The notes beneath the pieces were generated by a model. That model worked only from the letters and a program-made list of their open reading frames with translations, had not been told where the DNA came from and ran no database searches. The position numbers were made by a program, and so were the translations under genes. Of a stretch of DNA of 64,000 bases, positions 6,752 through 43,631 are shown piece by piece. Source of the stretch: Hellea balneolensis DSM 19091. Lineage in GTDB: Bacteria; Pseudomonadota; Alphaproteobacteria; Caulobacterales; Maricaulaceae. Numbering within the stretch: position 1 is the stretch's first letter; each line of letters starts with the position of its first letter. The stretch is taken from positions 62,001 through 126,000 of the forward strand of contig NZ_AUAC01000003.1 of NCBI RefSeq assembly GCF_000428525.1, given 5' to 3'.

Positions 6752-6773
6752 ATCTTAATAGGAGGACAAGACG

Positions 6774-7475
6774 ATGAAATGGAAACGTAGCCAATCTAAA
6801 TTTGGAAAAACACCTGTCCCTGAGACGCCGTATCAACGCGCAGGACAAAAAGAGGATCGGCGGTTAGGTCGAGCCAATGCGCGCGGTAACAGATGGTGCT
6901 TGGCCTTTTGCGGGGCCATGGGATTAGCCGCGCTCTCGACAAGCGGTCTGATATATCAAAGCGCCCAAGCGAGTATCGTGCCCTGGGTGGTTGAAGTTGA
7001 CGAAAGCGGCGCAGTTAAAGCGTCAGGTCCGGCTCAAACCAATTTCAAACCTTCAGACGCGCAGATTGCGCATCAATTAGCGCGCTTCATAAGCAATGTC
7101 CGGTCAGTCTCAATCGACCCTGTTGTTCTGCGTGATAATTGGCTGAACGCTTATAATTACGCCACAGATCAAGCGGCGCTCACGCTCAATACCTACGCCA
7201 ATGAGAATGACCCTTTTGCCGATATTGGGCAGCGCAGCGTGACCGTGGATGTCACGAGTATCGTGCGCTCATCCGAGGATAGCTTTGAAGTGCGTTGGCG
7301 CGAAAAATCTTTCCGTAATGGCGCGCAGCTGACCACGCAGACTTACACGGCGAGCCTTTCGATCATCACCAAGCCGCCGACGGATGCAGAGACTCTGCAC
7401 CGCAATCCGCTTGGTCTCTATGTCCACGGACTTCACTGGTCAAAAGACCTCAATGCAGCGGGAGCCTCACAATGA
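6774..7475 (+). CDS. trbF: TrbF, VirB8-like assembly protein
   Basis: This 233-aa bitopic protein has a basic cytoplasmic N-terminus, one membrane segment (about residues 41-60) and a periplasmic VirB8-like domain with NVRSVSIDPVVLRDNW and YTASLSI. VirB8/TrbF connects the inner-membrane complex to the core complex. A GGAGG ribosome binding site lies just upstream (6761-6765). The end overlaps trbG by 4 bp. Confidence 0.93.
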   Translation: MKWKRSQSKFGKTPVPETPYQRAGQKEDRRLGRANARGNRWCLAFCGAMGLAALSTSGLIYQSAQASIVPWVVEVDESGAVKASGPAQTNFKPSDAQIAHQLARFISNVRSVSIDPVVLRDNWLNAYNYATDQAALTLNTYANENDPFADIGQRSVTVDVTSIVRSSEDSFEVRWREKSFRNGAQLTTQTYTASLSIITKPPTDAETLHRNPLGLYVHGLHWSKDLNAAGASQ

Positions 7476-10856: not shown

Positions 10857-10918
10857 GGAGTAAAAATGAGGACAGGCGAATTTCTCTAGTGCAGTCTAAA
10901 TCTTTGAATTTATTGAGA

Positions 10919-10967
10919 AAAATGGTGCCCCCACACGGACTCGAACCGCGGACCCCCTGATTACAAA
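10919..10967 (-). repeat. att copy 1: 3' part of tRNA-Thr
   Basis: These 49 bp are identical to 43552-43600, which is the tRNA-Thr(TGT) gene from the anticodon loop through the encoded CCA plus three flanking bases. After this block, tRNA identity stops at once (the anticodon stem is not restored), so this is an attachment-site remnant and not a functional tRNA. It separates the trb segment from island A. The intergenic stretch 10653-11132 otherwise holds only the repeat pairs and a TTGACA at 11034-11039 that may be a -35 box. Confidence 0.9.
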
Positions 10968-11098: not shown

Positions 11099-11122
11099 TG
11101 CTTCCAAATTGCTTCCAAATTT
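11099..11122. repeat. Tandem 11-bp repeats, candidate integrase arm sites (left end of island A)
   Basis: Two copies of TGCTTCCAAAT stand in tandem, followed by TT. The same 24 bp occur at 22118-22141 near the other end, and nowhere else that I found. In the excised circle the two pairs would flank the att core on both sides, as arm sites do in an attP. The repeat lies just before the likely integrase start, so integrase binding could also repress its own gene. Confidence 0.65.
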
Positions 11123-11132
11123 GGAGTTGGTT

Positions 11133-12326
11133 TTGAAACTGAATAAAACAAACATCGACAAAATAGCCGCGTCCGATAAAGATCAATTCCATTGGGATGA
11201 TGATTTGAAAGGCTTCGGCCTAAGAGTATCCGCTAAAGGACGAAAGACCTTCATTGTGCAATATCGCCATGCAGGACGAACGCAACGCATAAGGATAGGT
11301 CAGCACGGAAGGATAACGGCTTTTGATGCAAGAAAAGATGCGCAGATATTATTGGGAGAGATTGCTCAAGGCCAAAGTCCAGCGAAAGCAGCAAAGGCAT
11401 TTCGGGAATCTCCGACCTTAACATATGTAGCGGAGCGATTTATGCGAGAGCATGTTAACGTAAGGCTTAAACCATCTACGCAGTCAGATTATAAGCGTAA
11501 CATTCGCGCCTATATATTGCCTGCACTTGGCTCTAGGCGCGTTGCTGATATTTCCCACAGGGACATTCATGAGCTGCATCATAAAATGCGAGCGACACCA
11601 ATTCAGGCTAATCGAACTGTCAGCGCTCTATCCAAAATTTTTAACCTATGTGAGAAATGGGGCTACAGGGACGGAAGCGTTAACCCATGCACCCAAATTG
11701 AGCGGTATAAAGAAAAGGCGCGGAGTAGATTTTTAGATCGTACCGAGCTTGAACGCCTATGGAATGCTTTGGAGGCGGCGCGTGATAGCGGCGACATAAG
11801 CCCTTATGCCGTTTCAGCTTTTAAGCTTTTGATTTTGACAGGGTGCAGGCTTGGCGAAATCAGAACGATGAAATGGGAATATCTGAAAGGTAATAGAGTC
11901 GAGTTCCCAGATACAAAGACAGGGTATAAACGGGTTCCACTAAATAAAGATGCGATGGCCATCTTATCAAAAATATCTCGAAAGCCCGATAATGATTATG
12001 TGATTTGCGGAAATGTGGAAGGACAGCCCATTATCAACTTACAAAAATCTTGGCGGCATATTCGCAAAAGAGCAGGGCTTGAAGATGTGAGAATACATGA
12101 CCTACGGCATACATTTGCCTCGCATGCGGTAATGGGCGGAACGCCACTTGCCATTGTAAGCAAACTTTTAGGTCATTCACAAATTACGACCACGATGCGA
12201 TACGCGCATTTGGCTGATGCAGAGTTATTAGATGCAACAGAATTAATAGGGAACGTATTACGCGTCACAAAAAAGAATAACTTTGACAACAATAACATCC
12301 ACTATTTGGAGGCCTCAAAGCCATGA
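11133..12326 (+). CDS. Tyrosine integrase of island A (P4-like)
   Basis: This site-specific recombinase has an N-terminal DUF4102-type arm-binding domain (FGLRVSAKGRKTFIVQYR), a core-binding SAM-like domain and a C-terminal catalytic domain with the full set of residues: Arg in LTGCRLGEI, Lys in DTKTGYKR, HDLRH, GHS and the nucleophile Tyr in MRYAHL. The open frame begins at TTG 11109, inside the arm repeat. I prefer TTG 11133 because GGAG lies 6 bp upstream, giving 397 aa. It is a paralogue of the integrase at 22414. The stop overlaps the next gene by 4 bp. Confidence 0.93.
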   Translation: MKLNKTNIDKIAASDKDQFHWDDDLKGFGLRVSAKGRKTFIVQYRHAGRTQRIRIGQHGRITAFDARKDAQILLGEIAQGQSPAKAAKAFRESPTLTYVAERFMREHVNVRLKPSTQSDYKRNIRAYILPALGSRRVADISHRDIHELHHKMRATPIQANRTVSALSKIFNLCEKWGYRDGSVNPCTQIERYKEKARSRFLDRTELERLWNALEAARDSGDISPYAVSAFKLLILTGCRLGEIRTMKWEYLKGNRVEFPDTKTGYKRVPLNKDAMAILSKISRKPDNDYVICGNVEGQPIINLQKSWRHIRKRAGLEDVRIHDLRHTFASHAVMGGTPLAIVSKLLGHSQITTTMRYAHLADAELLDATELIGNVLRVTKKNNFDNNNIHYLEASKP

Positions 12327-13120
12327 ATTTTAATGACGTGAATGTTAGCTGTCCAATTTTAAAAGGACATCTTGAACGCATAGAGCCTTTATTTCAGCGC
12401 ATGCCAGAAGGCGTAGATATTACTACTGCATTGGAACAAGTAGTAGTCGATAGCGCAAATAATGAAGACTGGAGTATCTATAAGAAATATAAAGATGAGC
12501 TGGAAAGCGAGTATCAATTCTTAGAACTTGAGGTTTCAGAACTAATCCAAGGTTTGGACTTTATAGCCAAACAATATGCCATGAGTTATGTTTCCAAAGC
12601 TCACCCAGATATGTTTGATGATGAGTTGTCAGAATTAGCACTCCTCTCTAAAGAGGCTAATCGACTTTTATATTATGTAGATCGTATAGATCCATCGATA
12701 GTCGAATTATTGAAATTAGTACAAAACTCTGATCCAGAAATTGTTGGTCCTCGTTTTGTCGAAGGTTATTTTGATGAGCTACGCGAAAACTTAAATACTC
12801 TAGTATCACTTAGAGAAAGTCTAAAAAATACAGATTTCGCAAAATTTCACAAAATTGGAGTTAAGAGTCCAAAAGGAAACATGCCGCTTCATATGTGGTT
12901 ATGGTATCTGAGAAAGTTTTGGATTGAAGGGGTAGGGCGTTCATTTAAGTTTGATGGGCATAGCGGCAAAAATGGGAGAACAAGATTCCTGAATTTCGCA
13001 ATGTATTGCATGGACAAACTGCATTCTGAAATCGCCTATGTAACGATAGAGAATGCACTCATTAAGTATGAGAAGAATGAGAAATTTAGGGTACAACTAG
13101 ATAAGAGTTTAGCGGGGTAG
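12323..13120 (+). CDS. Unrecognised 265-aa protein coupled to the integrase
   Basis: I do not recognise this family. It is predicted soluble and mostly helical, acidic in the first half, with an aromatic segment near residues 190-205 (PLHMWLWYLRKFW) followed by a small basic stretch (GHSGKNGRTRF). There is no signal peptide or membrane segment. The gene overlaps the integrase stop by 4 bp (ATGA), so the two are co-translated. It is strikingly A+T-rich compared with the trb genes. A role in integration control or as element cargo is possible, but nothing in the sequence decides it. Confidence 0.7.
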   Translation: MNFNDVNVSCPILKGHLERIEPLFQRMPEGVDITTALEQVVVDSANNEDWSIYKKYKDELESEYQFLELEVSELIQGLDFIAKQYAMSYVSKAHPDMFDDELSELALLSKEANRLLYYVDRIDPSIVELLKLVQNSDPEIVGPRFVEGYFDELRENLNTLVSLRESLKNTDFAKFHKIGVKSPKGNMPLHMWLWYLRKFWIEGVGRSFKFDGHSGKNGRTRFLNFAMYCMDKLHSEIAYVTIENALIKYEKNEKFRVQLDKSLAG

Positions 13121-13667: not shown

Positions 13668-14948
13668 ATGGAACTATTACATTCAGGCTTTGATACGATT
13701 GCTTTTGCTCTTCAAGGTGCTTTGGAACCTTGGGCTATTGAACAACTACGCATGGCCAAAGAACGGGCAAAGAAAGAAGATCAAGACATAACGATAACGC
13801 TTGGCAAAACGGGCCGAAAGGTACGGGTTAAGAAAAGCGGGCAACAGGGCGGTTATGCATTTGTTATCGATACAGGGACGTTAGGAGAGGTGATAAGTCT
13901 TAAAGATAATCTTATCCGTGATAACTGGAATGGCTTTGTAAAAATAAGTGCTGAGTCATTGGCGGTGCATAAACGACAAAAAGCGACAAATAATGCATTA
14001 AAAGCCGTTTCGGAAATCGGTTTCATTATCACGGACGTTTCATATAACCGTGTCGATTACTGTATCGATTTTTTAACCGATAATTTATCGATAAAAATCG
14101 ATAACTTTGTCGCTCACTCTCGCGTCAAAAAATCGATTTATTATCGACAAAAACCGCCAAGTTGCCGCCAAGATAACGCCCATAAAATAGGGCATAGCGA
14201 TGCCCTATCGGATACCCCTTTCTTGGCCCCAAATGGGGCCTATAACGGGCTAAATAGCCCTAATAAGGTCCAAACTGTTGACGGCAAGGAAGCGCCTAAT
14301 AATGCAATCCGTAAGACGGCTGTTATGCGAGGACGGGATATTGAAAGCGTAACCCTGGGAACAATGCCGGGGCGGCAAGTCATCATCTACGATAAAAAGG
14401 CGCAAGTTATAGCCAAACGCAAAAAATGGTGGTTCGACGTTTGGGGTTATCCAGAGGGCTATTTTAGGGCTAATCCAACCATGACCGTTACCCGTGTTGA
14501 AATAAGAGCGGGTAAAACCGAATTGGGAAAATACGGGATTAAATCGCAAAAGGATTTGGAAAGCCGTATCGGGAATGTTTTGCAAAAAAGCACGGAACAA
14601 ATCCGTTATGTGGCCCCTAATGATACTGACACCAACGTAAGCCGACAGCCACTGCATCCCCTTTGGGAATGGGTTCAAATGCATTTAAAATGCAAATTAG
14701 AGCCTATGACATCCCTTATCCAACCAGAAACGGTTTTAAATGCAATTCGTGCGCAAAAGAAACGGGAATATGAAAGCCAGATTATTGGCAACATGGCTGG
14801 TTATTCCATTTGCGATGATATACCCATTGATGATGTTATTGAAGAATTACCAAAACGGGTAGAGAAAGCCCTATTGGAACGCGCTACGGGCGATGACAGC
14901 CCTTTTTGGAAAGCCTATAGCAAGGCGAAAGATAGGCTAAACTATTAA
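13668..14948 (+). CDS. Rep_trans-family replication initiator or NicK-like relaxase
   Basis: The 426-aa protein has the layout of the Rep_trans (pT181 Rep / NicK) family: an early aromatic-rich HSGFDTIAFALQG, a VDYCIDF metal-site-like strand, an SVTLGTMPGRQVIIYDKKAQ segment like the family's G..r..riYdK block, and a RVEIRAG strand. NicK-type proteins nick oriT and allow rolling-circle replication of ICEs. A linker of about 45 residues (about 165-210) between the first and second conserved blocks is encoded by DNA with three perfect hairpins. Its assignment is from motif pattern alone. No coupling protein lies in island A, so transfer would need a helper. Confidence 0.65.
   Translation: MELLHSGFDTIAFALQGALEPWAIEQLRMAKERAKKEDQDITITLGKTGRKVRVKKSGQQGGYAFVIDTGTLGEVISLKDNLIRDNWNGFVKISAESLAVHKRQKATNNALKAVSEIGFIITDVSYNRVDYCIDFLTDNLSIKIDNFVAHSRVKKSIYYRQKPPSCRQDNAHKIGHSDALSDTPFLAPNGAYNGLNSPNKVQTVDGKEAPNNAIRKTAVMRGRDIESVTLGTMPGRQVIIYDKKAQVIAKRKKWWFDVWGYPEGYFRANPTMTVTRVEIRAGKTELGKYGIKSQKDLESRIGNVLQKSTEQIRYVAPNDTDTNVSRQPLHPLWEWVQMHLKCKLEPMTSLIQPETVLNAIRAQKKREYESQIIGNMAGYSICDDIPIDDVIEELPKRVEKALLERATGDDSPFWKAYSKAKDRLNY
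14187..14260. repeat. Three perfect hairpins inside the Rep-like coding sequence
   Basis: Within 74 bp lie ATAGGGCAT-AGCG-ATGCCCTAT (14187-14208, 9-bp stem), GGCCCC-AAAT-GGGGCC (14225-14240) and GGGCTA-AA-TAGCCC (14247-14260). They resemble the small hairpins upstream of the gene and encode the variable linker of the protein. Inserted palindromic elements, or part of an intragenic origin, are both possible. Confidence 0.55.
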
Positions 14949-15002: not shown

Positions 15003-16187
15003 ATGGACCATAGCCTGACATCAATTGAGCTTTTTGCAGGTGCTGCGGGGTTGGGGCTGGGCGCAAAGCAGTCAGGTATCGAACCTATTGCAGTGGTCGA
15101 ATGGAATAGAGATTGTCGTAAAACTATATTGATAAACAGGGATCGCAAAAACGGAGCCTTGAGTACATGGCCAAAAAAGATTGGCAAAGACGTGCGTAAT
15201 CAGGATTTTCGAGAGTATCAAAGCAAGATTGACCTTGTAATAGGCGGCCCGCCATGCCAGCCATTTTCGTTGGGCGGAAAGCACCAAGCTCAGACGGATA
15301 GTCGTGATATGTTTCCTGAAGCTGTACGAGCGGTGCGCGAAACAAGGCCAAAAGCTTTTATTTTTGAAAATGTTCGCGGGTTAACCCGCGAGTCTTTTCG
15401 GCCTTATTTTGAGTATATTACTTTGCAAATGCGTCATCCTCAGTTGGTTTCTAGACAAGGAGAGGATTGGGCTGACCACCTATCTCGATTACAAAGACAC
15501 CACACAGGCCACTCTGACGATGCAAATGATTACCGAGTAGTTACGCAGGTGTTAAACGCCGCTGATTATGGTGTGCCGCAACAAAGACACCGAGTATTTT
15601 TCGTTGGCTTTCGTGCTGACTTAGGTCTCCAGTGGCACTTCCCGCAAGCTACACATTGTAAAGAGGCGTTATTACAAGAATTAGCTAGTGGAGTGTATGC
15701 TGAACGCCTTGGTATAACCGAAAAACAGCTTGCTATATCGCCACAAATACAAAAATCCGTGAAACGCATTCAATCTCGTGATAACGAAAAGCAAGCTTTG
15801 GCCAGTTGGAAAACCGTTAGGGAAGCATTAGATGATTTGCCAGCCCCAACGCCTAAAGCTCATTCGAAAATTCTTAATCATCGTCTCCAAAAAGGTGCTA
15901 GAAGCTACCCTGGCCATACTGGCTCCCCCTTGGACTTACCAGCGAAGACATTGAAAGCAGGCGTTCACGGTGTTCCTGGAGGAGAAAATATGCTACGTAA
16001 CGCTAATGGCCAAGTGCGCTATTTTACTATAAGGGAAAGCGCTCGCCTTCAGACATTTCCTGATAATTTCGAAATCTCGGGTACGTGGTCTGAAGCTATG
16101 CGGCAACTTGGGAATGCAGTACCCGTAGCTCTCGGAGCCGCTGTGGCATCTAGTGTTAGCAACACATTGCTTAGTGTAAAGCCTTAG
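15003..16187 (+). CDS. DNA (cytosine-5) methyltransferase
   Basis: This 394-aa enzyme methylates C5 of cytosine in a specific DNA sequence. Motifs stand in standard order: I FAGAAGLGLG (11-20), IV GGPPCQPFS with catalytic Cys85, VI FENVRG (121-126), VIII QQRHR (193-197), and IX/X with RESARLQTFPD (344-354) and QLGNAVP (368-374). The target recognition region lies between about 210 and 330. It is followed after 2 bp by a GIY-YIG nuclease gene, so the pair is very likely a type II restriction-modification system. A GGAG ribosome binding site precedes the ATG. Confidence 0.95.
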   Translation: MDHSLTSIELFAGAAGLGLGAKQSGIEPIAVVEWNRDCRKTILINRDRKNGALSTWPKKIGKDVRNQDFREYQSKIDLVIGGPPCQPFSLGGKHQAQTDSRDMFPEAVRAVRETRPKAFIFENVRGLTRESFRPYFEYITLQMRHPQLVSRQGEDWADHLSRLQRHHTGHSDDANDYRVVTQVLNAADYGVPQQRHRVFFVGFRADLGLQWHFPQATHCKEALLQELASGVYAERLGITEKQLAISPQIQKSVKRIQSRDNEKQALASWKTVREALDDLPAPTPKAHSKILNHRLQKGARSYPGHTGSPLDLPAKTLKAGVHGVPGGENMLRNANGQVRYFTIRESARLQTFPDNFEISGTWSEAMRQLGNAVPVALGAAVASSVSNTLLSVKP

Positions 16188-16189
16188 TT

Positions 16190-16942
16190 ATGGAAGATAA
16201 TACTAATCCGGTTGGCTTCCGACAGTTTGAGTTTGAGCTTACAAACGCACTTATCGCACAACTTGTGAGATGTTTGGATGATTTGGAGTCCGCGCCGCTA
16301 ACATCAAAAAACGTAGGTTTGATACCTGATGGTCAGGGCGTTTACCAACTTTTCTTAGATGGAAAGCTTCAATATATTGGAAAAACCGATAGCGAAGCGG
16401 GGCTTTCAGTAAGGCTACTCAAACATTCTAGAAAAATCTCTGGTCGTCCTAACTTGAGAGGAAGGGTGACGTTTAAAGCGGTTCAAGTACTGGTTTTTTC
16501 GGCGATGGAATTGGAAACTATGTTGATTCAACATTACAAGAATGTTGAAGGGAAGGTAAAATGGCAACACAGTGGATTTGGTTCCAATGATCCGGGCCGT
16601 AGGCGAGATAGAACTGATTACAAAATTGATCACTTTGATGTACTTTACCCAATTGATATAGACGAGAAAGGGTCATTTGAATTCCAATCCGGTGCCTCCA
16701 TCAAGGACTGTTTGGATCAAATCAAAGGTCAACTGCCATATATATTCAGATTTGGAAAATCTCACAAATTAGAAGTTATAAAACTAACGCAGCGGGTTAC
16801 AGCATCTTCAGTTCGCGATGCAATTGAGCAAATAGTTAAATTACTTCCTCCAGGATGGCAGGCTACGAGACTACCAGGTTATCTAATTTTATATGAAGAG
16901 TTTACTGAATACGTCCATGGAGAAAAAATCGCTATTAGTTAA
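16190..16942 (+). CDS. GIY-YIG restriction endonuclease, Eco29kI-like
   Basis: The 250-aa protein has the GIY-YIG core: GVYQLF (50-55), YIGKT (62-66), Arg75, His79 and a Glu in the AMELETML helix (107-109). It is followed by the GFGSNDPGRRRD block that is characteristic of Eco29kI-type restriction enzymes. Where that family usually has Trp-Asn before the block, this protein has Trp-Gln (125-126), which may affect activity. Eco29kI itself cuts CCGCGG; whether this enzyme shares the target is unknown. The end overlaps the convergent ATPase gene by 4 bp. Confidence 0.8.
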   Translation: MEDNTNPVGFRQFEFELTNALIAQLVRCLDDLESAPLTSKNVGLIPDGQGVYQLFLDGKLQYIGKTDSEAGLSVRLLKHSRKISGRPNLRGRVTFKAVQVLVFSAMELETMLIQHYKNVEGKVKWQHSGFGSNDPGRRRDRTDYKIDHFDVLYPIDIDEKGSFEFQSGASIKDCLDQIKGQLPYIFRFGKSHKLEVIKLTQRVTASSVRDAIEQIVKLLPPGWQATRLPGYLILYEEFTEYVHGEKIAIS

Positions 16943-19800
16943 GTAACAACTTTGTTTCCAAATAAGTCGACCTCGGTTTGAAGCAAGCTACTTTCGTGAT
17001 ACAAGACTAGACGCTCTCTACTCCAATATAATTCAGGTTCCTTTGAGGGAAGACTTTGCCCAATAGCTGAGTTAACTGCTACTACAAAAGGACGAGGTTC
17101 GTATGAGATAAAGTCTGGTGCTTTTTCAGCAATACCTTCGCCAGGGTCATCGTCTTGTGTCTCAAACTTTCGCGACGGTGATATATTCACACTATAGTCC
17201 ATTTTGTGCACGAGTGCATGCTTTAAAGCATCTGACTTTTCATCATCCAGTGCAACTCTTGCTGCTTCGTGTCCAGTACGAATAGAAAGAAGAGTGTGTG
17301 TGACAATGAGTGTAATATTTAGTGAGCGCAGAGCGTTGAAGAGTTGCGGGAAAAACAAACGCCGAGCTTCAATTTTAGGAAATTGTAGAAAAACATTGTG
17401 AATTCCATCTATTACCACACTTGAAAAACTATCGCCTTCAAGCCTAGCTTGCTCAATCTTCCACAAAATTCGATTGAATAAAACATCAGGCTCTAGGTGA
17501 CCAGGGTACAAATGTATGGTTTCTATTTTCGTGGGGTTCATTGGTTTTTTAAATTCCGGATATTCGAATTGCCTAATCAGGTCTAATCTTTCCACGATGT
17601 TTTCGTAATAAGTACTCGGGTACAAAAACGAAATCACAAGAACTCGGTCTCGCGCTTTTGAGGATACAGGAATTTTGCCGTCTGAAATCCATGGGGACGC
17701 CGCGATTTTCAATGCAAAAGCGGCTTTGCCGGCGGAACCATCTCCATTAACAAAAATATGTGAACCCTGAAAAATATCTACACCTAATCTTGCCGGTACT
17801 GCTGATAAGTTGATATCTGATAGTTGTTTCACTTGTCTCGGATTTGGCGATTCATTTTGGGGAAAGTGCTTTAAATCCTCATCCGCAAAGGACCGGTTCA
17901 AAAACGATTTTGACAAACTGACATCTGGTAAGGACGGCTTCAAAGTTGCAAATTCTTCTAAGAGATAACTCGCTTGAGGGGTGAACCGGACTCCGTCGTC
18001 GCCAGACATGCTAAATCCATGACTGCCCGGTGCAAAAACTTGGTGCCGAGCTTTCTGAAGTAGAATTCTTCGATCAGGTTTTGAGTGACGATCGTTCACG
18101 TACGAATGCTCCAATTTAACCACTGTATCTACTAAGTAATCAATTGATGATCCAACTTCCTCGCCGACAGTCAAAATTACAAGCGCATTGAATTTCCGAC
18201 ACTGTTCGATAAACTTTATTAGCCCATTTCTCTCTCGAGGAGTGAGGTTTGATGCGATCGCGTGATGTAAACCATCTATTACAACCACGTTAGCACAAGG
18301 AAGTGGTACTTGTTTTTCACTTAGTGCATTATTGTAAGCGGCTTTTAAGGGGTCAATTAAAACTTCAATATCTTCAGTAATTATATCGATTGGCGAAAAC
18401 TCACCTTCACGTGACTCGAAATCTGATTTGTCGAAATGTGTTACGCTAAGCCATTCTTGACTTGAGGTGTTATTAATTCCTAAATCACGAGGTAAAGTTC
18501 CAAGAATATTTTGTACTCTTGTTTTCAGGTCGTTTGCACCTTCCTCGGTCGTAATAAATTCCGTCTCAATTCCAAACAATGATAGTGCTGCGCAAATAGA
18601 TAGAGATAACGAGGTTTTCCCCGATCCCGCTGACCCATGTATTGCCAACACCATTCCTCCACGTGAAGAAAATTTTAGCCCACCTTGAAAAAGTGTTTCG
18701 GCACCGCGTAGAGCAATTTGAACGCCCCAAATTAGGTTTATAATATCACTGGAATATGGAAGGTCCTGACGATCACTTGCTAAATCATATTCGAAAATTT
18801 TAGATGCTTCGTATTTTACGATCTTACTATCTTTGCGATCCGTAATAAGTTGTTCCATCATGTCGACAAAAGTCTTATATTCAATACTGGGTTTTATACG
18901 AATATCGAAATACCCTAGCATGGAAAGAATTGCTCTCACGAGGCCTGTCGAACGATGTGCCGCCAGACTAGAAAATAAATTTGGCGGTAATTTATCTTTA
19001 CCTTTGGAACGATCCCTTGGTGACAAACTTGTGCGGTTAAATTCAAAAGCGTCAATGACGTTTTTAATGGTTATTTTACCTCTTTTGTCATGCGGACCGG
19101 CCTCTAGCTCTTCAGGAATGAGATCGAACGAATACAACAAAAGCGATTTTAATGCGAAAATTGCAATGGACCTACTGGCCGGATTGTTTGGCATTGTTAG
19201 GATATCTAGAGTGACTTCCAATGGAGAGGGAATAACAATCGCATCTTGCCGTTTTAGGGAGGTGTGAGAAACTTTTGTAGTTACAAATCTTTGTAAAGTT
19301 GCTTCTTTTATTATCCGACTTATTCTTGTTGGAAGTGACCTGACATGTTCGCTCTCGGCATGCAAACTTGAGCGTTTTAACAGACAGTTTTTGGTTTCCA
19401 AATCTTCTAAAAACTGATCAAAACTGTAATCTTTCAACGTCGAATTCGATGACTTTAAGAATGATTCATATGTTGATGAATGTACCTTTTTTAAAGCCAT
19501 CCAAACCTTCAAATCTGGTTGCCAAGTGTTAAGGTTTATCCTCCAAGCGCGCTTTAAATCATTTTTTATCAACGACTTTATCTTTTCTGAGGGAGAGCCA
19601 GCAACTAAATGCTTGTACTTTTTTCGATAAGGGTACAGCCAACAAAAATGTCTGTTTATTCTTGCATCCAAGTTTGCTTCATCTTGGGGAGGTTTTAACA
19701 CCTCCCCAATAGCATGGGTCACACTCAATAGTAGGTCGGAGCAGATATCCATGAATGGATACTGTCCGGCTTGTCGATATTCAATTTTCTCTGGCGACAT
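16939..19800 (-). CDS. 953-aa protein with two KaiC/RecA-like ATPase domains
   Basis: The first 350 or so residues match nothing I know. Then follow two KaiC-like domains. Domain 1 has Walker A HGSAGSGKTS (388-397), Walker B NVVVIDG (504-510), and the KaiC-type strand pattern RILLQKARHQ...GSHGFSMSGDDGVRF (578-606). Domain 2 has a degenerate Walker A, NGDGSAGKAA (685-694), with Ala in place of the Mg-binding Thr/Ser, and Walker B SSVVIDG (793-799). KaiC-like ATPases switch oligomeric state or partners. One catalytic and one degenerate P-loop suggest a sensor or switch. It is the last gene of a three-gene operon, starting 2 bp after the HTH gene's stop. Confidence 0.85.
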   Translation of the reverse strand: MSPEKIEYRQAGQYPFMDICSDLLLSVTHAIGEVLKPPQDEANLDARINRHFCWLYPYRKKYKHLVAGSPSEKIKSLIKNDLKRAWRINLNTWQPDLKVWMALKKVHSSTYESFLKSSNSTLKDYSFDQFLEDLETKNCLLKRSSLHAESEHVRSLPTRISRIIKEATLQRFVTTKVSHTSLKRQDAIVIPSPLEVTLDILTMPNNPASRSIAIFALKSLLLYSFDLIPEELEAGPHDKRGKITIKNVIDAFEFNRTSLSPRDRSKGKDKLPPNLFSSLAAHRSTGLVRAILSMLGYFDIRIKPSIEYKTFVDMMEQLITDRKDSKIVKYEASKIFEYDLASDRQDLPYSSDIINLIWGVQIALRGAETLFQGGLKFSSRGGMVLAIHGSAGSGKTSLSLSICAALSLFGIETEFITTEEGANDLKTRVQNILGTLPRDLGINNTSSQEWLSVTHFDKSDFESREGEFSPIDIITEDIEVLIDPLKAAYNNALSEKQVPLPCANVVVIDGLHHAIASNLTPRERNGLIKFIEQCRKFNALVILTVGEEVGSSIDYLVDTVVKLEHSYVNDRHSKPDRRILLQKARHQVFAPGSHGFSMSGDDGVRFTPQASYLLEEFATLKPSLPDVSLSKSFLNRSFADEDLKHFPQNESPNPRQVKQLSDINLSAVPARLGVDIFQGSHIFVNGDGSAGKAAFALKIAASPWISDGKIPVSSKARDRVLVISFLYPSTYYENIVERLDLIRQFEYPEFKKPMNPTKIETIHLYPGHLEPDVLFNRILWKIEQARLEGDSFSSVVIDGIHNVFLQFPKIEARRLFFPQLFNALRSLNITLIVTHTLLSIRTGHEAARVALDDEKSDALKHALVHKMDYSVNISPSRKFETQDDDPGEGIAEKAPDFISYEPRPFVVAVNSAIGQSLPSKEPELYWSRERLVLYHESSLLQTEVDLFGNKVVT

Positions 19801-19802
19801 AA

Positions 19803-20663
19803 TTATGCATCTAGGCGACGAATTGCGGGCATTACCTCAACAGCTCGTGACGAGTTGGCTTGAATTCGACTTCCCCTCTTCATTAATTTGCTCCGGAGGC
19901 CAATAGGCGGCATGCCAATGACCTCTAAAGCTTCGTTAGCAGTCTCAATGTGTGGTGTAGGTAAAGCTTTGTTAGCTGGTTTAATCTGTGATGTGGGTAC
20001 AGAGTGGTTAAACAGATAGTTAGCCAGTGATTCCCTTAGTTCAAATTTTCGATAAATTGGAGTCGAGAGTTCTTTAGTATCAAGATTCACGTACTGAAAA
20101 TCCGATGGTCTAAATTCAAAAAATTCTGATACAATGTCTTCCCTTAACCTTCCAATATTAACAGAGAGAACATGGTGATATTTTTGCGCAAGAGTTGAGC
20201 GGTTTTCATTAAAAGCATCAGTCTCTGTTGTAGGATCAGTATCGACTAATTCTGGAGCTGCAGTATCAACTGAAGCAAATCCGCCTTTCTCAATTAAAGA
20301 GACTTGTTGTTCAGGAGTGAGTCCACGTAATTCTCGACCAAAGCGAAAAAAGGATCCATCTGCCAAATATTCGCTAAGTGTTTTTCCCATTCGTGACCCA
20401 AATGGAGAAATATCTTCACAAGGGAGACCGTAAAGACTTTCGAATTCTTCAATTACAGCAATAGTATTCTTATCTGGATTTTGTTTTAAAACATCAACAA
20501 TCATCAATACAAGGTCAGCTCGCGGCAGCGTTTTGTCGTTTACCCATTGAGAAATGGCTGGGGTCGAAATAGTCAAAAAGTCTGCCCACTGATTCCTTGA
20601 GAAGTAATTCGTATCATCAAGTAATTTTTTCAAAGATCGTGCAAATATGCTAATCTGTTTCAT
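19803..20663 (-). CDS. HTH protein with a long unrecognised C-terminal region
   Basis: Residues 1-65 form an XRE-like helix-turn-helix (SRNQWADFLTISTPAISQWV, then TLPRADLVLMIVDVL). The remaining 220 or so residues are not recognised. They include a low-complexity segment with repeated NKALPTPHIETANEAL-type units (about 225-250) and a basic tail. The frame is open to 20681, but I prefer the ATG at 20663: GGAGGG lies 5 bp upstream, inside the end of the flavoprotein gene, and the preceding stop ends one base before. The protein probably regulates the operon or bridges the flavoprotein and the ATPase; that is inference. Confidence 0.75.
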   Translation of the reverse strand: MKQISIFARSLKKLLDDTNYFSRNQWADFLTISTPAISQWVNDKTLPRADLVLMIVDVLKQNPDKNTIAVIEEFESLYGLPCEDISPFGSRMGKTLSEYLADGSFFRFGRELRGLTPEQQVSLIEKGGFASVDTAAPELVDTDPTTETDAFNENRSTLAQKYHHVLSVNIGRLREDIVSEFFEFRPSDFQYVNLDTKELSTPIYRKFELRESLANYLFNHSVPTSQIKPANKALPTPHIETANEALEVIGMPPIGLRSKLMKRGSRIQANSSRAVEVMPAIRRLDA

Positions 20664-20664
20664 A

Positions 20665-21897
20665 TTATCCCTCCGCATCATTAAATGTATATATTTTTTG
20701 GAAATGCATTTTTATTGGTTCTGTCCAATTTCCTGGAATAGAATGTGGAATTGGAATTTTCTTGTTGCCATTTAACTTTGTCGTGAGTTTTCCCCATGTT
20801 TTAATAGCTGCATCTGTTGCGACCGTTGCGCGGCCTGGGCTTGCAAAAACGACATTTCCGAATTCTTGAATCCAAGGACCGAACTCAGAGACGCCATACT
20901 GGTCAGGAATAACTTCGTATCCCGCCGTATATCTCACGTCCGAAAGTCGGTCGGTGAGGGGGGCTGGTAAACAATTATGTAGTTCATGAAGGTGTTCTTC
21001 ACGAAATTCCCGGTTTTCGTATAAACAGTGTTTCGCGTTTTTGAGTCTGGTCGCATCACCGCCACCTACTACGATTGGTCTCGCGGGGTTACGATCATCG
21101 GTATATCTGTGCTGAACTGCGCTGTAACCCATACCCCAATCAATAAATATAGATGCTGGAAGAACTGGGTCGGTTTGCCCGACAAGTAATGGGGTTAAGC
21201 GTAACTTTCCGTTGGCGGTTATCCCCAATTGCTTTAGTAAGTCAAATGAACCGCTTCCTGCCGCAATAAGCGTCACTGATGATTCAATAGTTTGGCCATC
21301 AAAGTTTATTCTTGTAACTGATCCATGCTTGGAAATAGTTACTGGCGCTTCGGTTTGGAAAAATTTTGCACCGTTCTCAATGGCTTTCGAACGTAGTCTC
21401 TCTAAAACCTTTGCTTCATCAAAGGGCAAATCAGGTATTCGAAAATAAAGCTGTTTTGGGTTGTAGAGTGCTTCCAATTGATTGCGGGCCTCATCGGGCT
21501 CCAATTGTCTGAATTGGTCTATTGAAAAACCGATAAGCTCTGCTCTTCTATTTAGTTTTCCTATTCTTCTGGAATCGTCTTTATTTATCCCAACGATCCC
21601 ATTATCGTCTGGTATTGGTAGCCCGATACTTTTCAGCATTCCTCTACCAGACTGAAAGGTGCTTCTTGCAAAATTCTGAAAACGAACCTCGTCGCCTTGA
21701 AAAGCTGCGATAGGGTACATTATCCCAGATTGTAACCAACCTTGGTTCCTTAGGGTATCTGCTCTCGGAATTCCTGAATCCTTTAAGCGAAATACAATAG
21801 GACGTTTGCCTGCTTGAGTGGCGAGAGCTGCAACTGCAGTCCCCATGATGCCACCCCCTATTATGGCAAAGTCGTAGTTTTCATCAAAATTAAGCAC
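20665..21897 (-). CDS. DAO-type FAD-dependent oxidoreductase
   Basis: The 410-aa flavoprotein has an N-terminal dinucleotide-binding motif (FAIIGGGIMGTAVAALA, about 10-26), a NQGWLQSGIMYP segment typical of DAO-family oxidases related to L-2-hydroxyglutarate oxidase, and a C-terminal VFASPGRATVATDAA FAD contact. The substrate cannot be told. It is read from a GTG and leads an operon with an HTH gene and the KaiC-like ATPase gene. A metabolic flavoenzyme in this context, next to a restriction-modification pair on an island, is unusual. It may generate or sense a small-molecule or redox signal. Confidence 0.85.
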   Translation of the reverse strand: MLNFDENYDFAIIGGGIMGTAVAALATQAGKRPIVFRLKDSGIPRADTLRNQGWLQSGIMYPIAAFQGDEVRFQNFARSTFQSGRGMLKSIGLPIPDDNGIVGINKDDSRRIGKLNRRAELIGFSIDQFRQLEPDEARNQLEALYNPKQLYFRIPDLPFDEAKVLERLRSKAIENGAKFFQTEAPVTISKHGSVTRINFDGQTIESSVTLIAAGSGSFDLLKQLGITANGKLRLTPLLVGQTDPVLPASIFIDWGMGYSAVQHRYTDDRNPARPIVVGGGDATRLKNAKHCLYENREFREEHLHELHNCLPAPLTDRLSDVRYTAGYEVIPDQYGVSEFGPWIQEFGNVVFASPGRATVATDAAIKTWGKLTTKLNGNKKIPIPHSIPGNWTEPIKMHFQKIYTFNDAEG

Positions 21898-21908
21898 GGT
21901 CTCACTAT

Positions 21909-21950
21909 AAATTAAGTGACTTAATTAAGTGTAAAATTGGCGATAGTCAA
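21909..21950 (-). promoter_or_regulatory. Predicted promoter and operator of the flavoprotein/HTH/KaiC operon
   Basis: On the minus strand TTGACT (21950-21945) and TAATTA (21927-21922) are 17 bp apart. The -10 box lies inside a perfect 12-bp palindrome ACTTAATTAAGT (21919-21930). AATTAAGTG is repeated directly at 21910-21918 and 21923-21931. Binding of the operon's HTH protein here would block the promoter, which suggests autoregulation. The rest of the stretch 21951-22117 shows nothing clear. Confidence 0.5.
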
Positions 21951-22117
21951 GACGCGCCTTCAATTACTTACATATTCTAATCATATTCTAACCTGGGTTG
22001 TTATGAGTGGTGTTGAGGTGACGCTTGCCGTAGAGCTCTATTCACAGATGATGAGACAGAGGTCTTTCAGACTGGTATGGCTTAAAGTATCCACAATAAA
22101 AATTTAGCTAAAAATTC

Positions 22118-22141
22118 TGCTTCCAAATTGCTTCCAAATTT
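22118..22141. repeat. Tandem 11-bp repeats, candidate integrase arm sites (right end of island A)
   Basis: This is an exact copy of 11099-11122: two TGCTTCCAAAT units plus TT. It ends 57 bp before the att copy at 22199, matching the 62-bp spacing of the repeat pair at the right end of the trb element. See the copy at 11099. Confidence 0.65.
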
Positions 22142-22198
22142 ATTGGGTTACATGATTCATGAAATTAGAAGTCAGTTAAGGTATTGAAATATAAGTGA

Positions 22199-22247
22199 AA
22201 AATGGTGCCCCCACACGGACTTGAACCGCGGACCCCCTGATTACAAA
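22199..22247 (-). repeat. att copy 2: 3' part of tRNA-Thr
   Basis: This block of 49 bp matches the tRNA-Thr gene at 43552-43600 with one difference (T for C at 22222, in the T loop region). Identity stops in the anticodon loop. It is the joint between islands A and B. Between it and the island B integrase start (22248-22413) I see a palindrome ACTCTAGAGT nested in TGCACTC/GAGTGCA arms (about 22269-22293), but no coding sequence. Confidence 0.9.
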
Positions 22248-22413
22248 TCTCACTCTCCATTTCGGATTTAATGCACTCCAGTACTCTAGAGTGCACTAAA
22301 CGACTGTATTCATTGAGATTTAAAAATGCTATGATCACCCCATAGCACAGGGCTACGCGCAATATCACCCGCAATTGGTCCCTGTGAGGACCCACACATT
22401 TTGGGAGGGCGAT

Positions 22414-23556
22414 ATGGCAACAGGAAAGATAACATCACGATCCGTGGCCCGTTTTAAAGGAGAGCCGGGTAAAGAGAGCTGTCTTTGGGATACAGAAGTT
22501 AAAGGGTTTGGACTGCGAGTCCAGCCATCCGGGCGGCGATCCTACATATATAAATTCAGAACGCCTGATGGCAGGCGGCGTAATAGAAAGCTTGGGGATG
22601 AAGCCGCTTTAACAGCTGAAGCGGCAAGGCGCGCGGTAAAGGTTTGGGTTGTCAATCGTGCCGAAGGTAAACCCATATTAAACGCCAAGCCTGTCGTACA
22701 GTCTATCACTCTAAGAACGCTATGTGATCTTTATATTGAGGATTATGCCAAGCTTCATAAGAAGCCTAAAAGCATTGAGGAAGATAGCCGTTATATTGAG
22801 CGAGATATTAAGCCAGCGCTGGGCCATAAAGCATTGAGCGAAATAGGGTCAAAAGACATCGTCAGGCTTAAGAGTGATTTTGCTGATACGCCTGTCAAAG
22901 CTAACCGCGTATTGGCGCTTTTATCCAAGATATTTAATTTGGCAGAAGAATGGGAGTATCGAGAGCCTAATACTAACCCAGTCCGGCACATTCGAAAGTT
23001 TAAGGAGACGTCGCGCAAACGCTATTTGAATCCCGAAGAACTGGAGCGTTTGGAAAACGCGATGGCAGATGCGGAAGTAAATGGTTGGACATCACAACCC
23101 GTCATTGATGCCATTAGAGTTTTGCAGATGACAGGAGCTCGTCTCAGAGAAGTTCTGAACATGGAATGGACATTTGTTGATTTGCCGAATGGGCAAGTTC
23201 ATCTGCCGGATTCCAAGACGGGCGAGAAGACGATATTTCTTAGTAATAAAGCTCGGCGTTATCTTGGCGACATAGAGCGCAAATCTGACAATCCATACGT
23301 CTTCCCAGGCCAACGGCAAGGTGCGCAACTTATAAACATACAAAAGCCTTGGAGATTGATCAGAGAGCGAGCTCAACTCAATGATGTTCGCATTCATGAC
23401 CTGAGACATACTTATGCTAGCCTTGCGGTAGCGCAGAACCTGTCCCTGCCAATTGTCGGGAAACTTCTCGGTCACAAGAGTTCCAAGTCGACAGAGCGCT
23501 ATGCTCATCTTTATACTGACGTTATGATTGCTGCCGCCAAAAAAGTAGGAGGATGA
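22414..23556 (+). CDS. Tyrosine integrase of island B (P4-like)
   Basis: The 380-aa enzyme has the same three-domain layout as the island A integrase, with about a third or more of residues shared by eye (for example KANRVLALLSKIFNLAEEW). The catalytic set is complete: Arg in MTGARLREV, Lys in DSKTGEK, HDLRH, LGHKS and Tyr in ERYAHL. The frame opens at 22375, but the ATG at 22414 follows GGGAGGG by 5 bp and starts with the usual MATGKIT-type N-terminus. It lies 167 bp from the att copy. Confidence 0.93.
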   Translation: MATGKITSRSVARFKGEPGKESCLWDTEVKGFGLRVQPSGRRSYIYKFRTPDGRRRNRKLGDEAALTAEAARRAVKVWVVNRAEGKPILNAKPVVQSITLRTLCDLYIEDYAKLHKKPKSIEEDSRYIERDIKPALGHKALSEIGSKDIVRLKSDFADTPVKANRVLALLSKIFNLAEEWEYREPNTNPVRHIRKFKETSRKRYLNPEELERLENAMADAEVNGWTSQPVIDAIRVLQMTGARLREVLNMEWTFVDLPNGQVHLPDSKTGEKTIFLSNKARRYLGDIERKSDNPYVFPGQRQGAQLINIQKPWRLIRERAQLNDVRIHDLRHTYASLAVAQNLSLPIVGKLLGHKSSKSTERYAHLYTDVMIAAAKKVGG

Positions 23557-24996: not shown

Positions 24997-26022
24997 ATGA
25001 CAAGTCCAATTGACCTTATGGGCGCGCCAGGATCGCCTTATACCCGCAAGATGTTGGCGCTTATGCGCTACCGGGGAATACCTTATCGTGTACACTGGAC
25101 ATCAGGGGAGGTGCCGAAAGGCTTTCCGAAGCCCAAGATTGGGTTGCTACCCACATATTTTCTACCCAGTAAAGAGGATGAACTGGAAGCTGTTACGGAT
25201 TCTACGCCGATCATTCGCCGCTTTGAAAAGACCTATGACGGTCGGTCTGTTATTCCTGATAATCCTGTTCTTTCATTTCTAAACGAACTGATTGAAGATT
25301 ATGGTGATGAATGGCTCACCAAGGCGATGTTTCATTATCGGTGGGCGCATGAGGCGGACTATAAAAATGCCGGGCCTCTACTGATTTATTGGGGGAGTTC
25401 GGTAATCGATGATGCAGCTGCGCAGGGCTTATCTGATCATTTTACGAAACGCCAGATTGACCGGCTCTATGTAGTTGGATCAAATGAAATAACGGCACCT
25501 ATCATTGAGGCCGCTTATATTCGATTCATAGGCATTCTTGACAAACTGATTTCACAAAGAGGTTATGTGCTTGGCGGACGACCATCGGCAGCGGACTTTG
25601 CAATATTCGGGCAAATGACACAGCTCGGTATTATCGAGCCGACCTCTGCTAAAATAACGCGGGATATTTCGGCCCGTGTGCGGGCTTGGCTCGACCGCAT
25701 GGAGGATTTGTCTGGACTGTCACCTAAGGATGAGGACTGGTTTGACGTCTCGAATATTAAAGAGGCTCTGGCGCCACTCTTATCCGAGATTGGCCGAACC
25801 TACACGCCTGTTATGCTGGCCAATGCCAACGCCGTCATGGCAGGTGAAAAGACGTTTGAAACAAGCGTCGACGGTGCGCCTTGGACGCAACCCACATTTA
25901 AATATCAAGCCAAGACGCTGGGTTGGATCCGAGAATCTTATTTCGATTTGAAATCGAAAGACCAAAAACACGTCGATGAAACCTTAAAGGGAACAGGCTG
26001 CGAAGCCTTATTCGAAACATGA
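24997..26022 (+). CDS. Glutathione S-transferase-like protein
   Basis: The 341-aa protein starts with a thioredoxin-like GST N-domain (DLMGAPGSPYTRKMLALMRYRGIPY) and has an all-helical C-domain with LGGRPSAADFAIFGQM, the usual GST helix motif. It then extends about 100 residues beyond a normal GST. The frame is open from TTG 24961, but that codon is in the operator; ATG 24997 gives a normal N-terminus. It overlaps the sulfatase gene by 4 bp. A glutathione-dependent step on the island's substrate is likely but unproven. Confidence 0.8.
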   Translation: MTSPIDLMGAPGSPYTRKMLALMRYRGIPYRVHWTSGEVPKGFPKPKIGLLPTYFLPSKEDELEAVTDSTPIIRRFEKTYDGRSVIPDNPVLSFLNELIEDYGDEWLTKAMFHYRWAHEADYKNAGPLLIYWGSSVIDDAAAQGLSDHFTKRQIDRLYVVGSNEITAPIIEAAYIRFIGILDKLISQRGYVLGGRPSAADFAIFGQMTQLGIIEPTSAKITRDISARVRAWLDRMEDLSGLSPKDEDWFDVSNIKEALAPLLSEIGRTYTPVMLANANAVMAGEKTFETSVDGAPWTQPTFKYQAKTLGWIRESYFDLKSKDQKHVDETLKGTGCEALFET

Positions 26023-27695
26023 AATTAAGATGGAAAGTTCTGACTGGCCTAGGCCTCGCGCTCATTGTTGTCGGGGCTTATGTCTATCAAAACCGTGTTG
26101 ATATTATTCTCAATCGGGTTGCCAAACAGGGTAAGCCAGAGATTCGAGCAACCATTGACATTGATTGGGCGCAAGGTCCAACAACTGCGGCAAGGGGAGA
26201 TCGTCCGCCCAATATTGTTTTTATTCTCGCGGATGATCTTGGCATAAATGACATCTCGACATTTGGTGGCGGCTTAGCCAGCGGCAAAATATCTACGCCT
26301 AATATTGACCGCCTCGCGAGCGAAGGCGCAATCTTTACGCAAGCCTATGCTGGTAATGCGACCTGCGCGCCGTCAAGGGCCATGCTGATGACTGGACGTT
26401 ATCCGACACGGACAGGCTTTGAATATACACCGACACCGCCCGGCATGAGCCGCATGGTGACGATGATTTCCAATGACATGAAATCAAAGTCAGATAGTCC
26501 CATTGATAGGATGGTTTACACAAAGCCCGAAGGTGACGTGCCTGATTTTTACGGGCAAGGCCTGCCGAGTGAAGAAATTACCATTGCAGAGATCTTGAAA
26601 GAGACAGACTATCATACGGTTCATATCGGGAAATGGCATTTGGGATATGGCGAGCGCGGCGCGCATAATCAGGGCTTTGATGAGAGCCTGCATATGGACG
26701 ATATGTATTACCTACCCAAAGAGGATCCCAATGTTGTCAATGCAGAGCTCGACTTTGATCCTATTGATAAATTCCTGTGGGCGCGCGGAGATTTTGCCAA
26801 TAGTTTTAATGGCGGCGAAGGCTTCCGGCCCGGCGGATATTTGACGGATTACTGGACAGATGAAAGTCTGAAAGTCATTGAGGCGAATAAGAACCGCCCG
26901 TTCTTTTTATATCTGGCACATTGGGGTGTGCATACGCCGTTACAAGCGACCAAAGCCGATTATGATGCCATAAACGCAAGGGTGGGCGATGACGCGACGC
27001 ACCGCATGAAAGTCTATGGCGGCATGCTGCGCGCGCTCGACCGCTCTGTGGGGCGGGTCATGGATAAACTCGAAGAAGAAGGCCTCTCGGAGAATACCAT
27101 CATTGTCTTCTCCTCGGATAATGGCGGGGCGGGCTATATCGGCGTAGATGGTATCAACGCACCCTATCGCGGCTGGAAACTCACCATGTTTGAAGGTGGT
27201 ATCAAAGCGCCCATGTTTGTGAAATGGCCCGCTCGTATTCAAGCGGGCACCAAAATTGACACGCCTGTTGCCCATATCGACCTTATGCCAACTCTGGCGG
27301 CGGCGGCAGGCGCAGAGTTGCCGAACGTACCCATCGATGGCCGTAATATGCTAAGCCTGATTGCTAATGATGGTGAGTTTACTCGCAAAGACGATGCACT
27401 CTATTGGCAGAGTGGTTATCTGCAAGTCGTGCGCGCTGGTGATTGGAAATTACAACATGAAGGCCGCAGGAATAAAAACTGGCTTTTTAACCTGGCCGAT
27501 GATCCCATCGAGCAAAATAATCTGGCGGAGGCAAACCCAGAAAAACTCGCCGAACTCACCAAGCTATTAGAAAAACATCAAGCCGGACGCACACAATCCC
27601 TCTATCCCTATTCAATGGAAAGCCCGATCCAGATTGATAAGACACTGGCAGATGAGGCGAGTAAGGATGATGTGGTGGCCTGGTGGCCAAATTAG
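26019..27695 (+). CDS. Type I (formylglycine) sulfatase
   Basis: The 558-aa arylsulfatase-like hydrolase cleaves sulfate esters in the periplasm. It has an uncleaved N-terminal membrane anchor (about residues 7-24), the metal-binding start NIVFILADDLGINDIS, and the C-x-P-S-R signature with Cys116 as the residue converted to formylglycine, followed by AMLMTGR. HIGKWHLG and FSSDNGG complete the site. A formylglycine-generating enzyme is needed but is not in the window. It is translationally coupled to the GST gene and ends convergently with the gene at 27703. Confidence 0.93.
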   Translation: MKLRWKVLTGLGLALIVVGAYVYQNRVDIILNRVAKQGKPEIRATIDIDWAQGPTTAARGDRPPNIVFILADDLGINDISTFGGGLASGKISTPNIDRLASEGAIFTQAYAGNATCAPSRAMLMTGRYPTRTGFEYTPTPPGMSRMVTMISNDMKSKSDSPIDRMVYTKPEGDVPDFYGQGLPSEEITIAEILKETDYHTVHIGKWHLGYGERGAHNQGFDESLHMDDMYYLPKEDPNVVNAELDFDPIDKFLWARGDFANSFNGGEGFRPGGYLTDYWTDESLKVIEANKNRPFFLYLAHWGVHTPLQATKADYDAINARVGDDATHRMKVYGGMLRALDRSVGRVMDKLEEEGLSENTIIVFSSDNGGAGYIGVDGINAPYRGWKLTMFEGGIKAPMFVKWPARIQAGTKIDTPVAHIDLMPTLAAAAGAELPNVPIDGRNMLSLIANDGEFTRKDDALYWQSGYLQVVRAGDWKLQHEGRRNKNWLFNLADDPIEQNNLAEANPEKLAELTKLLEKHQAGRTQSLYPYSMESPIQIDKTLADEASKDDVVAWWPN

Positions 27696-43551: not shown

Positions 43552-43600
43552 AAAATGGTGCCCCCACACGGACTCGAACCGCGGACCCCCTGATTACAAA
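43552..43600 (-). repeat. att copy 3, inside the intact tRNA-Thr
   Basis: The 49-bp att block as it stands in the intact gene: anticodon loop to CCA plus four A. It forms the right boundary of island B. GTGCTAACTAT (43490-43500), 52 bp to the left, differs at one base from GTGCTTACTAT beside the att copy at 10919 and may be a single arm site. Confidence 0.85.
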
Positions 43601-43631
43601 TCAGGTGCTCTACCAGCTGAGCTATAGGGGC
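43556..43631 (-). tRNA. tRNA-Thr, anticodon TGT
   Basis: The minus strand folds as a 76-nt cloverleaf with acceptor GCCCCTA/TGGGGGC, D arm AGCTCAGCTGGTAGAGC, anticodon stem CTGAT/ATCAG with loop TTTGTAA (anticodon TGT), T arm with GGTTCGAGTCC and encoded CCA. It is the only complete copy in the window. The 3' part is duplicated at 10919 and 22199. Confidence 0.97.

Follow-up and report, generated by a model that had tools for sequence, protein, structure and literature searches.

KaiC proteins are known as clock and signaling ATPases, and both domains of KaiC are defined by a catalytic pair of glutamates. Among other known systems, CBASS and Avs are marked by effector swapping, in which a constant sensor or switch gene is combined with an exchanged effector gene, and DarTG is an anti-phage system that acts by ADP-ribosylation of DNA. 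Here we analyze a stretch of 64,000 nucleotides from Hellea balneolensis DSM 19091 (contig NZ_AUAC01000003.1, positions 62,001 to 126,000; hereafter the window), in which a three-gene operon encodes a DAO-type flavoprotein, a helix-turn-helix (HTH) protein and an ATPase with two KaiC-like domains. We found that this ATPase is the constant third member of a three-gene cassette in 15 independent loci, that its two partner genes have been exchanged, and that a DNA methyltransferase gene usually stands beside the cassette. With modest confidence, we read the operon as a variant of a modular, usually methyltransferase-linked conflict cassette, most likely anti-phage, that combines a KaiC-type switch with an exchangeable enzyme.

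The operon in the window

All three genes lie on the minus strand and are read in the order flavoprotein, HTH protein, ATPase. Their coordinates bear out the tight coupling claimed in a preliminary description of the sequence, with gaps of 1 bp and 2 bp:

20665..21897, minus strand: gene 1, a DAO-type flavin adenine dinucleotide (FAD) oxidoreductase of 410 aa with a GTG start (PF01266)
19803..20663, minus strand: gene 2, an HTH protein of 286 aa with an N-terminal helix-turn-helix; the best start is the ATG at 20663, behind GGAGG
16939..19800, minus strand: gene 3, a double-KaiC ATPase of 953 aa (KaiC, PF06745, 42.7 bits against a cut-off of 26.6)

In a Pfam scan the flavoprotein scored 55.7 bits against a cut-off of 27.9, which places it in the DAO family (PF01266), and a GGGIMG nucleotide-binding motif is visible in its sequence. 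No named DAO enzyme was reached, the best NCBIfam match being L-2-hydroxyglutarate oxidase at 26.3 bits against a cut-off of 299. The HTH protein matches HTH_3 at 16.7 bits, under the Pfam cut-off of 23, and is supported by regulators in PHROG (best E 4e-5), and the ATPase matches KaiC in the PDB by profile with E 3e-9. The single shared promoter that had been proposed for the operon is not supported: a scan for sigma-70-type promoters upstream of the flavoprotein gene (21898-22300) gave no match, a result that leaves room for a promoter of another type.

The ATPase is the constant member of a three-gene cassette

Including the window, the ATPase family comprises 15 independent loci, spread over Proteobacteria, Bacteroidota and one phage contig (labels with L denote loci, L014 being from Undibacterium, L016 from Mucilaginibacter pedocola and L037 the phage contig; labels with G denote genomes). 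Used alone as query, the window ATPase found no relative by tblastn in plasmids or phages and none in a first genome-wide pattern scan. Genome searches led to G973 (39% identity to the window ATPase), an alignment query led to G1152 and G1080, a second genome-wide pattern scan with four aligned ATPase sequences gave ten loci (L012-L021), and viral scans gave L037. Because both pattern scans need exact short peptides, these ten loci are a lower bound. The family is rare and patchy: 1,619 genome look-ups, which were overlapping draws at limits of 1e-3 to 1e-20, yielded three additional genomes, and the known genomes G000 (that of the window), G973 and G1384 recur among them. At E 1e-5 the ATPases of L012, L017 and L037 found no relative in plasmids, and that of L037 found none in phages. 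Duplicates were counted once: L022 and L039 are one record with the proteins of L018, L038 is L037, and L005, L007, L023 and L036 are G973/L013 copies. L002-L004 (E ~1e-3), whose match is limited to the stretch around the P-loop, were dropped as candidate relatives before counting.

In all 15 loci the ATPase gene is found third in a tight, co-directional cassette of three genes, with gaps of -59 to +35 bp. Genes 1 and 2 of 12 loci are an unnamed pair, A (248-290 aa) and its helper B, which gives the order A-B-C. With a profile of gene A (A8, E 0.001), A was found as a single gene beside the ATPase in each of the 12 A-B-C genomes, in L020 as two pieces, and was not found in the genomes of the window and L014; the profile was built with rows from nine of the 12 genomes, and the remaining three match it at E 2e-67 to 3e-23. 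Gene B is one family by BLASTP in eight loci, to which L015 is joined weakly (hhalign E 5e-4, probability 31%). Gene 2 of L016 and L019 is of a second type, and that of L020 is assigned by position only.

The pair is replaced in the three other loci: by the flavoprotein and the HTH protein in the window, by two proteins that gave no family match in our scans in L014, and in L037 by a nitrilase-like protein, whose match to carbon-nitrogen hydrolases falls short of the cut-off (E 0.029), together with a protein of the winged-HTH type (MarR_2, E 5e-6). Each of the three swapped loci sits among A-B loci in the ATPase tree, L014 with L015 (support 96/96), L037 with L020 (100/100) and the window with L010, L012 and L013 (93/93). 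Since four partner states need as much on any tree, there have been at least three changes of partner while the ATPase stayed. As for whether the replacement genes of the window might be distant forms of the pair, profile comparison by hhalign linked neither the HTH protein to B (E no better than 0.14) nor the flavoprotein to A (E 0.57).

A co-occurrence check proposed for the trio had a divided outcome. The exact trio does not recur, since none of the 14 ATPase relatives has a BLASTP relative of the flavoprotein or of the window HTH protein near its ATPase gene, whereas the three-gene layout with the ATPase third is common to all 15 loci. The phage-contig cassette (L037:7483-12277; nitrilase-like, winged-HTH and KaiC-type proteins, amid tail genes as read by eye) repeats this layout, its enzyme-like gene and HTH protein being different from those of the window. 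Because the ATPase is always third and L037 has the same layout with other proteins, the flavoprotein is one of several exchangeable partners. The flavoprotein found only itself in 240 genomes of the class at E 1e-15 and no relative in viral contigs, and among the 20 listed of its 40 plasmid matches identity is 23-31% over 32-50% of its length; the window HTH protein found nothing in plasmids. The early proposal of a multi-gene system on an island, with a KaiC-type ATPase as its switch-like part, has held up in part, in that the ATPase is the constant member.

One ATPase domain is intact and the other is altered in a conserved way

The predicted model of the window ATPase (predicted local distance difference test score, pLDDT, 70; predicted template modeling score, pTM, 0.78) has the KaiC fold, with Z 22.8 to KaiC CI and Z ~22 over both domains (423-446 residues). 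The KaiC rows of the fold comparison cover residues 350-938, and the N-terminal ~350 aa are extra and largely helical in the model. Domain 1 carries GxxGxGKT, a glutamate pair (EE) and the Walker B aspartate in all 15 loci. Domain 2 has the motif GxGSxGKA, in which all 15 loci retain the P-loop lysine and 14 have alanine in place of the threonine or serine (L020 has serine); its Walker B residue is aspartate, except for glutamate in L006, and SFLY is found in every locus at the presumed position of the catalytic glutamate pair. The preliminary description had noted one intact and one degenerate P-loop. The intact one stands as described, but the second is not merely decayed, given the lysine and SFLY in all loci and the alanine in 14 of them. 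As judged from these motifs, domain 1 can probably hydrolyze ATP, and domain 2 probably binds nucleotide but leaves it unhydrolyzed. By analogy with KaiC, the protein may form two rings, the first active and the second non-hydrolyzing.

The fold itself would suit a clock-like or metabolic module, in which a KaiC-type timer is joined to a flavoenzyme and there is no tie to conflict. We consider such a module very unlikely, as gene 3 reaches 42.2 bits against the cut-off of 408 for the KaiC equivalog (NF006799), domain 2 has no glutamate pair, and the family is rare and patchy, has a mobile setting and is linked to methyltransferases.

Linkage to DNA methyltransferases

A DNA methyltransferase gene adjoins the cassette or stands one gene away from it in 12 of the 15 loci. 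The enzyme is of the C5 type in eight (the window, L006, L010, L012, L013, L014, L016 and L019) and of the N4/N6 type in four (L011, L017, L018 and L021, the last by similarity only), and the N4/N6-type loci cluster in a single clade of the ATPase tree. In a control based on PF00145 counts in 14 genomes (those of all loci but the phage contig) with a 3-kb margin, a C5 gene was seen by the ATPase in eight genomes against 0.07 expected (P ~2e-16, a rough value that ignores the clustering of defense genes in islands). G973 (7 Mb) has just one C5 methylase gene at E 1e-10, as has the genome of L019, and in both it is the gene at the side of the cassette. In the window the methylase gene is part of a putative restriction-modification (R-M) pair:

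15003..16187, plus strand: C5-cytosine DNA methyltransferase (PF00145, 202 bits against a cut-off of 22; PADLOC MTase_II, E 9e-116)
16190..16942, plus strand: Eco29kI-like restriction endonuclease (PF09517, 21.6 bits, under the cut-off of 30.8)

The nuclease gene is downstream of the methylase gene and converges on gene 3, which it overlaps by 4 bp. The type II R-M pair that had been placed beside the operon is thereby confirmed for the methylase, which is well over its cut-off, and is matched by a nuclease below its own.

A methyltransferase alongside in 12 loci is also what would be expected if the cassette were an accessory or regulator of R-M, with the ATPase and the HTH protein controlling the expression or activity of the methyltransferase or guarding against its loss, and gene 1 being a secondary enzyme. 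HTH proteins in two of the variants, and the confinement of the N4/N6 type to one ATPase clade, point the same way. L015 and L020, on the other hand, have A-B-C although no methyltransferase was detected in the neighbors tested, and several unrelated proteins in the first position would be unnecessary for regulation, so that we regard this role as unlikely.

Other genes of restriction type were observed near some cassettes. In L016 (7476-21757) A-B-C lies between a Vsr-like gene and a run of C5 methylase, GHKL ATPase, Z1, DUF4420 and AIPR genes, all on one strand. In L006 an Mrr-type restriction nuclease gene (5804-6904) is oriented divergently to A-B-C, and the ATPase and C5 methylase genes are separated by a Vsr gene (11338-11772). 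Vsr genes recur by C5-type cassettes, in three of the eight C5 loci (L006 by Pfam, L016 and L019 by similarity). Eco29kI is a GIY-YIG enzyme, and a possible GIY-YIG protein (E 0.012, below cut-off) is encoded upstream of the cassette in L011 (3892-4953).

Gene A weakly resembles ADP-ribosyltransferases in its predicted fold

In a comparison of the gene A model (L017, pLDDT 79) with known folds, the top 20 of 33 rows have the ADP-ribosyltransferase fold, with a best Z of 6.0; 11 of these are Tpt1/KptA, two are DarT and seven are bacterial toxins. Foldseek of gene A against viral models gave nothing at E 0.001. All aligned A proteins share one glutamate, which in the L017 protein is E267 and falls close to the beginning of strand 266-271; it might be catalytic. 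We take the model as a weak lead that gene A is ADP-ribosyltransferase-like rather than as membership in a family. A DarT-like identity for gene 1 of L014, suggested by a supposed motif, was unsupported by profile and family scans.

The operon is cargo of an integrative element

The operon is flanked by two copies of a tRNA-Thr 3' end and is therefore cargo of an 11.3-kb integrative element. This bears out the tRNA-bounded island proposed in the preliminary description and sharpens it to the segment between the two 51-bp copies. Besides the operon and the R-M pair, which make up most of its cargo, the element contains its own integrase and two unknown genes:

10917..10967, minus strand: left attachment repeat, a copy of the tRNA-Thr 3' end (51 bases, 98% identical to the right copy)
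11109..12326, plus strand: tyrosine integrase of the element (PF00589, E 1e-26; Arm-DNA-bind_3)
12323..13120, plus strand: element protein of 265 aa, no family above any cut-off (Pfam, PADLOC, NCBIfam, PHROG)
13668..14948, plus strand: element protein of 426 aa (PHROG 1159, unknown function, E 4e-5)
22197..22247, minus strand: right attachment repeat, a copy of the tRNA-Thr 3' end (51 bp)
43556..43631, minus strand: intact tRNA-Thr(TGT) (ARAGORN, Rfam)

The 426-aa protein is perhaps, as a guess, the replication protein of the element. The intact tRNA-Thr gene is likely the original integration target, and a further copy of 48 bases is found ~43 kb before the window begins (G000:C2:18846-18893). 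Trb-type conjugation genes and DUF736 lie to the left of the element, and another integrase gene (22375-23556) lies to its right; apparently, three integrative elements stand in tandem at one tRNA-Thr gene (window positions 1-43631). The third, right-hand element carries an integrase gene of its own, a Fic gene and two genes that look sulfatase-like by eye (26019-27695 and 29321-31087).

A compact operon found on an integrative element as well as on a phage contig, with an HTH gene central in both, could be an addiction module of the mobile element, in which gene 1 is the toxin and the HTH/ATPase pair is the antitoxin and autorepressor. That the predicted fold of gene A is shared with toxins would agree with this, if weakly. 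At 814-985 aa the ATPases would be atypical antitoxins, and the L015 cassette lies amid lipid- and sugar-transfer genes and the L010 neighbors look house-keeping by eye; because of these two loci, not every copy of the cassette is plainly on a mobile element. We think an addiction module quite unlikely.

The least probable of the alternatives in our view, and a highly improbable one, is counter-defense, in which a cassette carried by mobile elements blocks or modifies host restriction. One copy is indeed on the phage contig, and one, with the proteins of L018, is on an IMG/VR provirus, but with a methyltransferase gene beside it in 12 of 15 loci, the cassette looks more like an ally of modification than an opponent.

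Interpretation of the cassette

Our preferred reading remains that of a conflict cassette in which switch and enzyme are separable modules. Gene 3 would be a two-domain KaiC-type switch, probably ring-forming, and gene 2, the HTH protein in the window, would couple the switch to DNA or transcription. Gene 1 would supply an exchangeable damaging enzyme, which may be a FAD oxidoreductase in the window, an ADP-ribosyltransferase-like protein in most relatives and a nitrilase-like protein on the phage contig. The methyltransferase would mark self DNA. The likely trigger would be loss of this mark or the entry of unmarked DNA, which the switch and its helper would sense and which would free or activate the gene 1 enzyme. 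The genes and motifs, the modeled fold of gene 3, the methyltransferase linkage, the exchange of partners and the mobility are observations. We infer the defense role here, and with it the ring form, the trigger, the enzyme as effector and its substrate; the reading predicts that self-methylation holds the enzyme off.

A number of observations weigh against this reading. Since the R-M pair of the window lacks no component of its own, the operon may simply travel with it as a passenger. The linkage is not absolute, since the neighbors tested in L015 and L020 (all but a few small open reading frames) include no methyltransferase; these two loci also have no C5 gene on the cassette contig, and the nearest methyltransferase gene in L037 is of HsdM type and 5.7 kb away. 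The ADP-ribosyltransferase likeness of gene A is seen at Z of 6.0 or less and at a Foldseek E of 0.46 or worse. The DarT family (PF14487) misses gene A: in eight genomes, seven with A together with that of L014, its three matches are weak and below cut-off, and none is on the cassette contig. The nitrilase-like call in L037 is below cut-off, and no PDB sequence match backs it. Gene 2 is one family in just eight loci, with L015 weakly added, and is elsewhere defined by position, and the window branch of the ATPase tree is long (1.75) and its placement unstarred. Finally, PADLOC-DB 2.0.0 held no credible model for genes 1-3 or for the A, B and C proteins of the relatives that were scanned, a set that leaves out the genes of L011, L013, L019 and L021 and gene A of L015 and L020. 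The matches obtained were those of the ATPase in its P-loop region, none better than E 5e-4, and one of the winged-HTH gene 2 of L037 to CARF models, at E 3e-7.

A bolder proposal, which we hold tentatively and judge somewhat short of probable, is that the cassette represents a methyltransferase-coupled immune class whose core, a two-ring KaiC-type ATPase with one active and one dead ring, licenses exchangeable effectors. The window would then be the first case with a FAD oxidoreductase as effector, which might mount a redox attack on metabolism upon the appearance of unmarked DNA. If the conflict reading is true, KaiC-type switches are extended to conflict with mobile DNA. The apparently half-dead KaiC pair is constant while its partners have been traded at least three times, and such a cassette would provide a series of effectors that nature has exchanged under a single switch.

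Comparison with known systems

The cassette is apparently undescribed as a gene system, in agreement with the early statement that no known system has this gene set: no description of it was found in PADLOC 2.0.0, for the proteins scanned, or by our searches of an open-license literature library, from which preprints and most subscription papers are absent. The word KaiC does not occur in the main texts of PMC13092281 and PMC12839542, and the passages on KaiC that the open-license defense-island literature yielded in the portions covered are unrelated to the cassette.

With KaiC and the archaeal KaiC-like proteins (PF06745), gene 3 shares the double RecA-type fold over residues 350-938 and, in domain 1, the Walker A motif, the glutamate pair and Walker B. 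It differs in the ~350 additional N-terminal residues, in the GxGSxGKA and SFLY of domain 2 and in falling far under the equivalog cut-off.

R-M neighborhoods of the MORC/MutL type bring an ATPase together with Vsr endonucleases and cytosine methylases, as set out in the main text of Iyer et al. (2008, PMC2292703), where neither KaiC nor RecA is mentioned. The L016 cassette adjoins such a setting, the GHKL ATPase-Z1-DUF4420-AIPR run, whereas no GHKL ATPase or Z1 is found among the eight proteins of the window element that were scanned. The pair in the window resembles type II R-M of the Eco29kI kind in that a C5 methylase adjoins an Eco29kI-like nuclease, itself below cut-off; this nuclease has no BLASTP relative (1e-4) in the open reading frames of the 13 other loci compared.

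The likeness to MADS consists of weak P-loop matches of the ATPase, to mad8 at E 5e-4 (71 residues) and to mad3 at E 0.045 (43 residues). These matches end at the P-loop region, and for six other window proteins no mad model is among the matches listed. With DarTG, the gene A model has in common a weak resemblance to the ADP-ribosyltransferase fold, DarT being among the rows (Z 3.9), but PF14487 misses gene A and the enzyme of the window is not of this type. With CBASS, Avs and other effector-swapping systems the cassette shares an organization of a constant switch gene with a swapped partner, but the scanned proteins match none of their PADLOC models.

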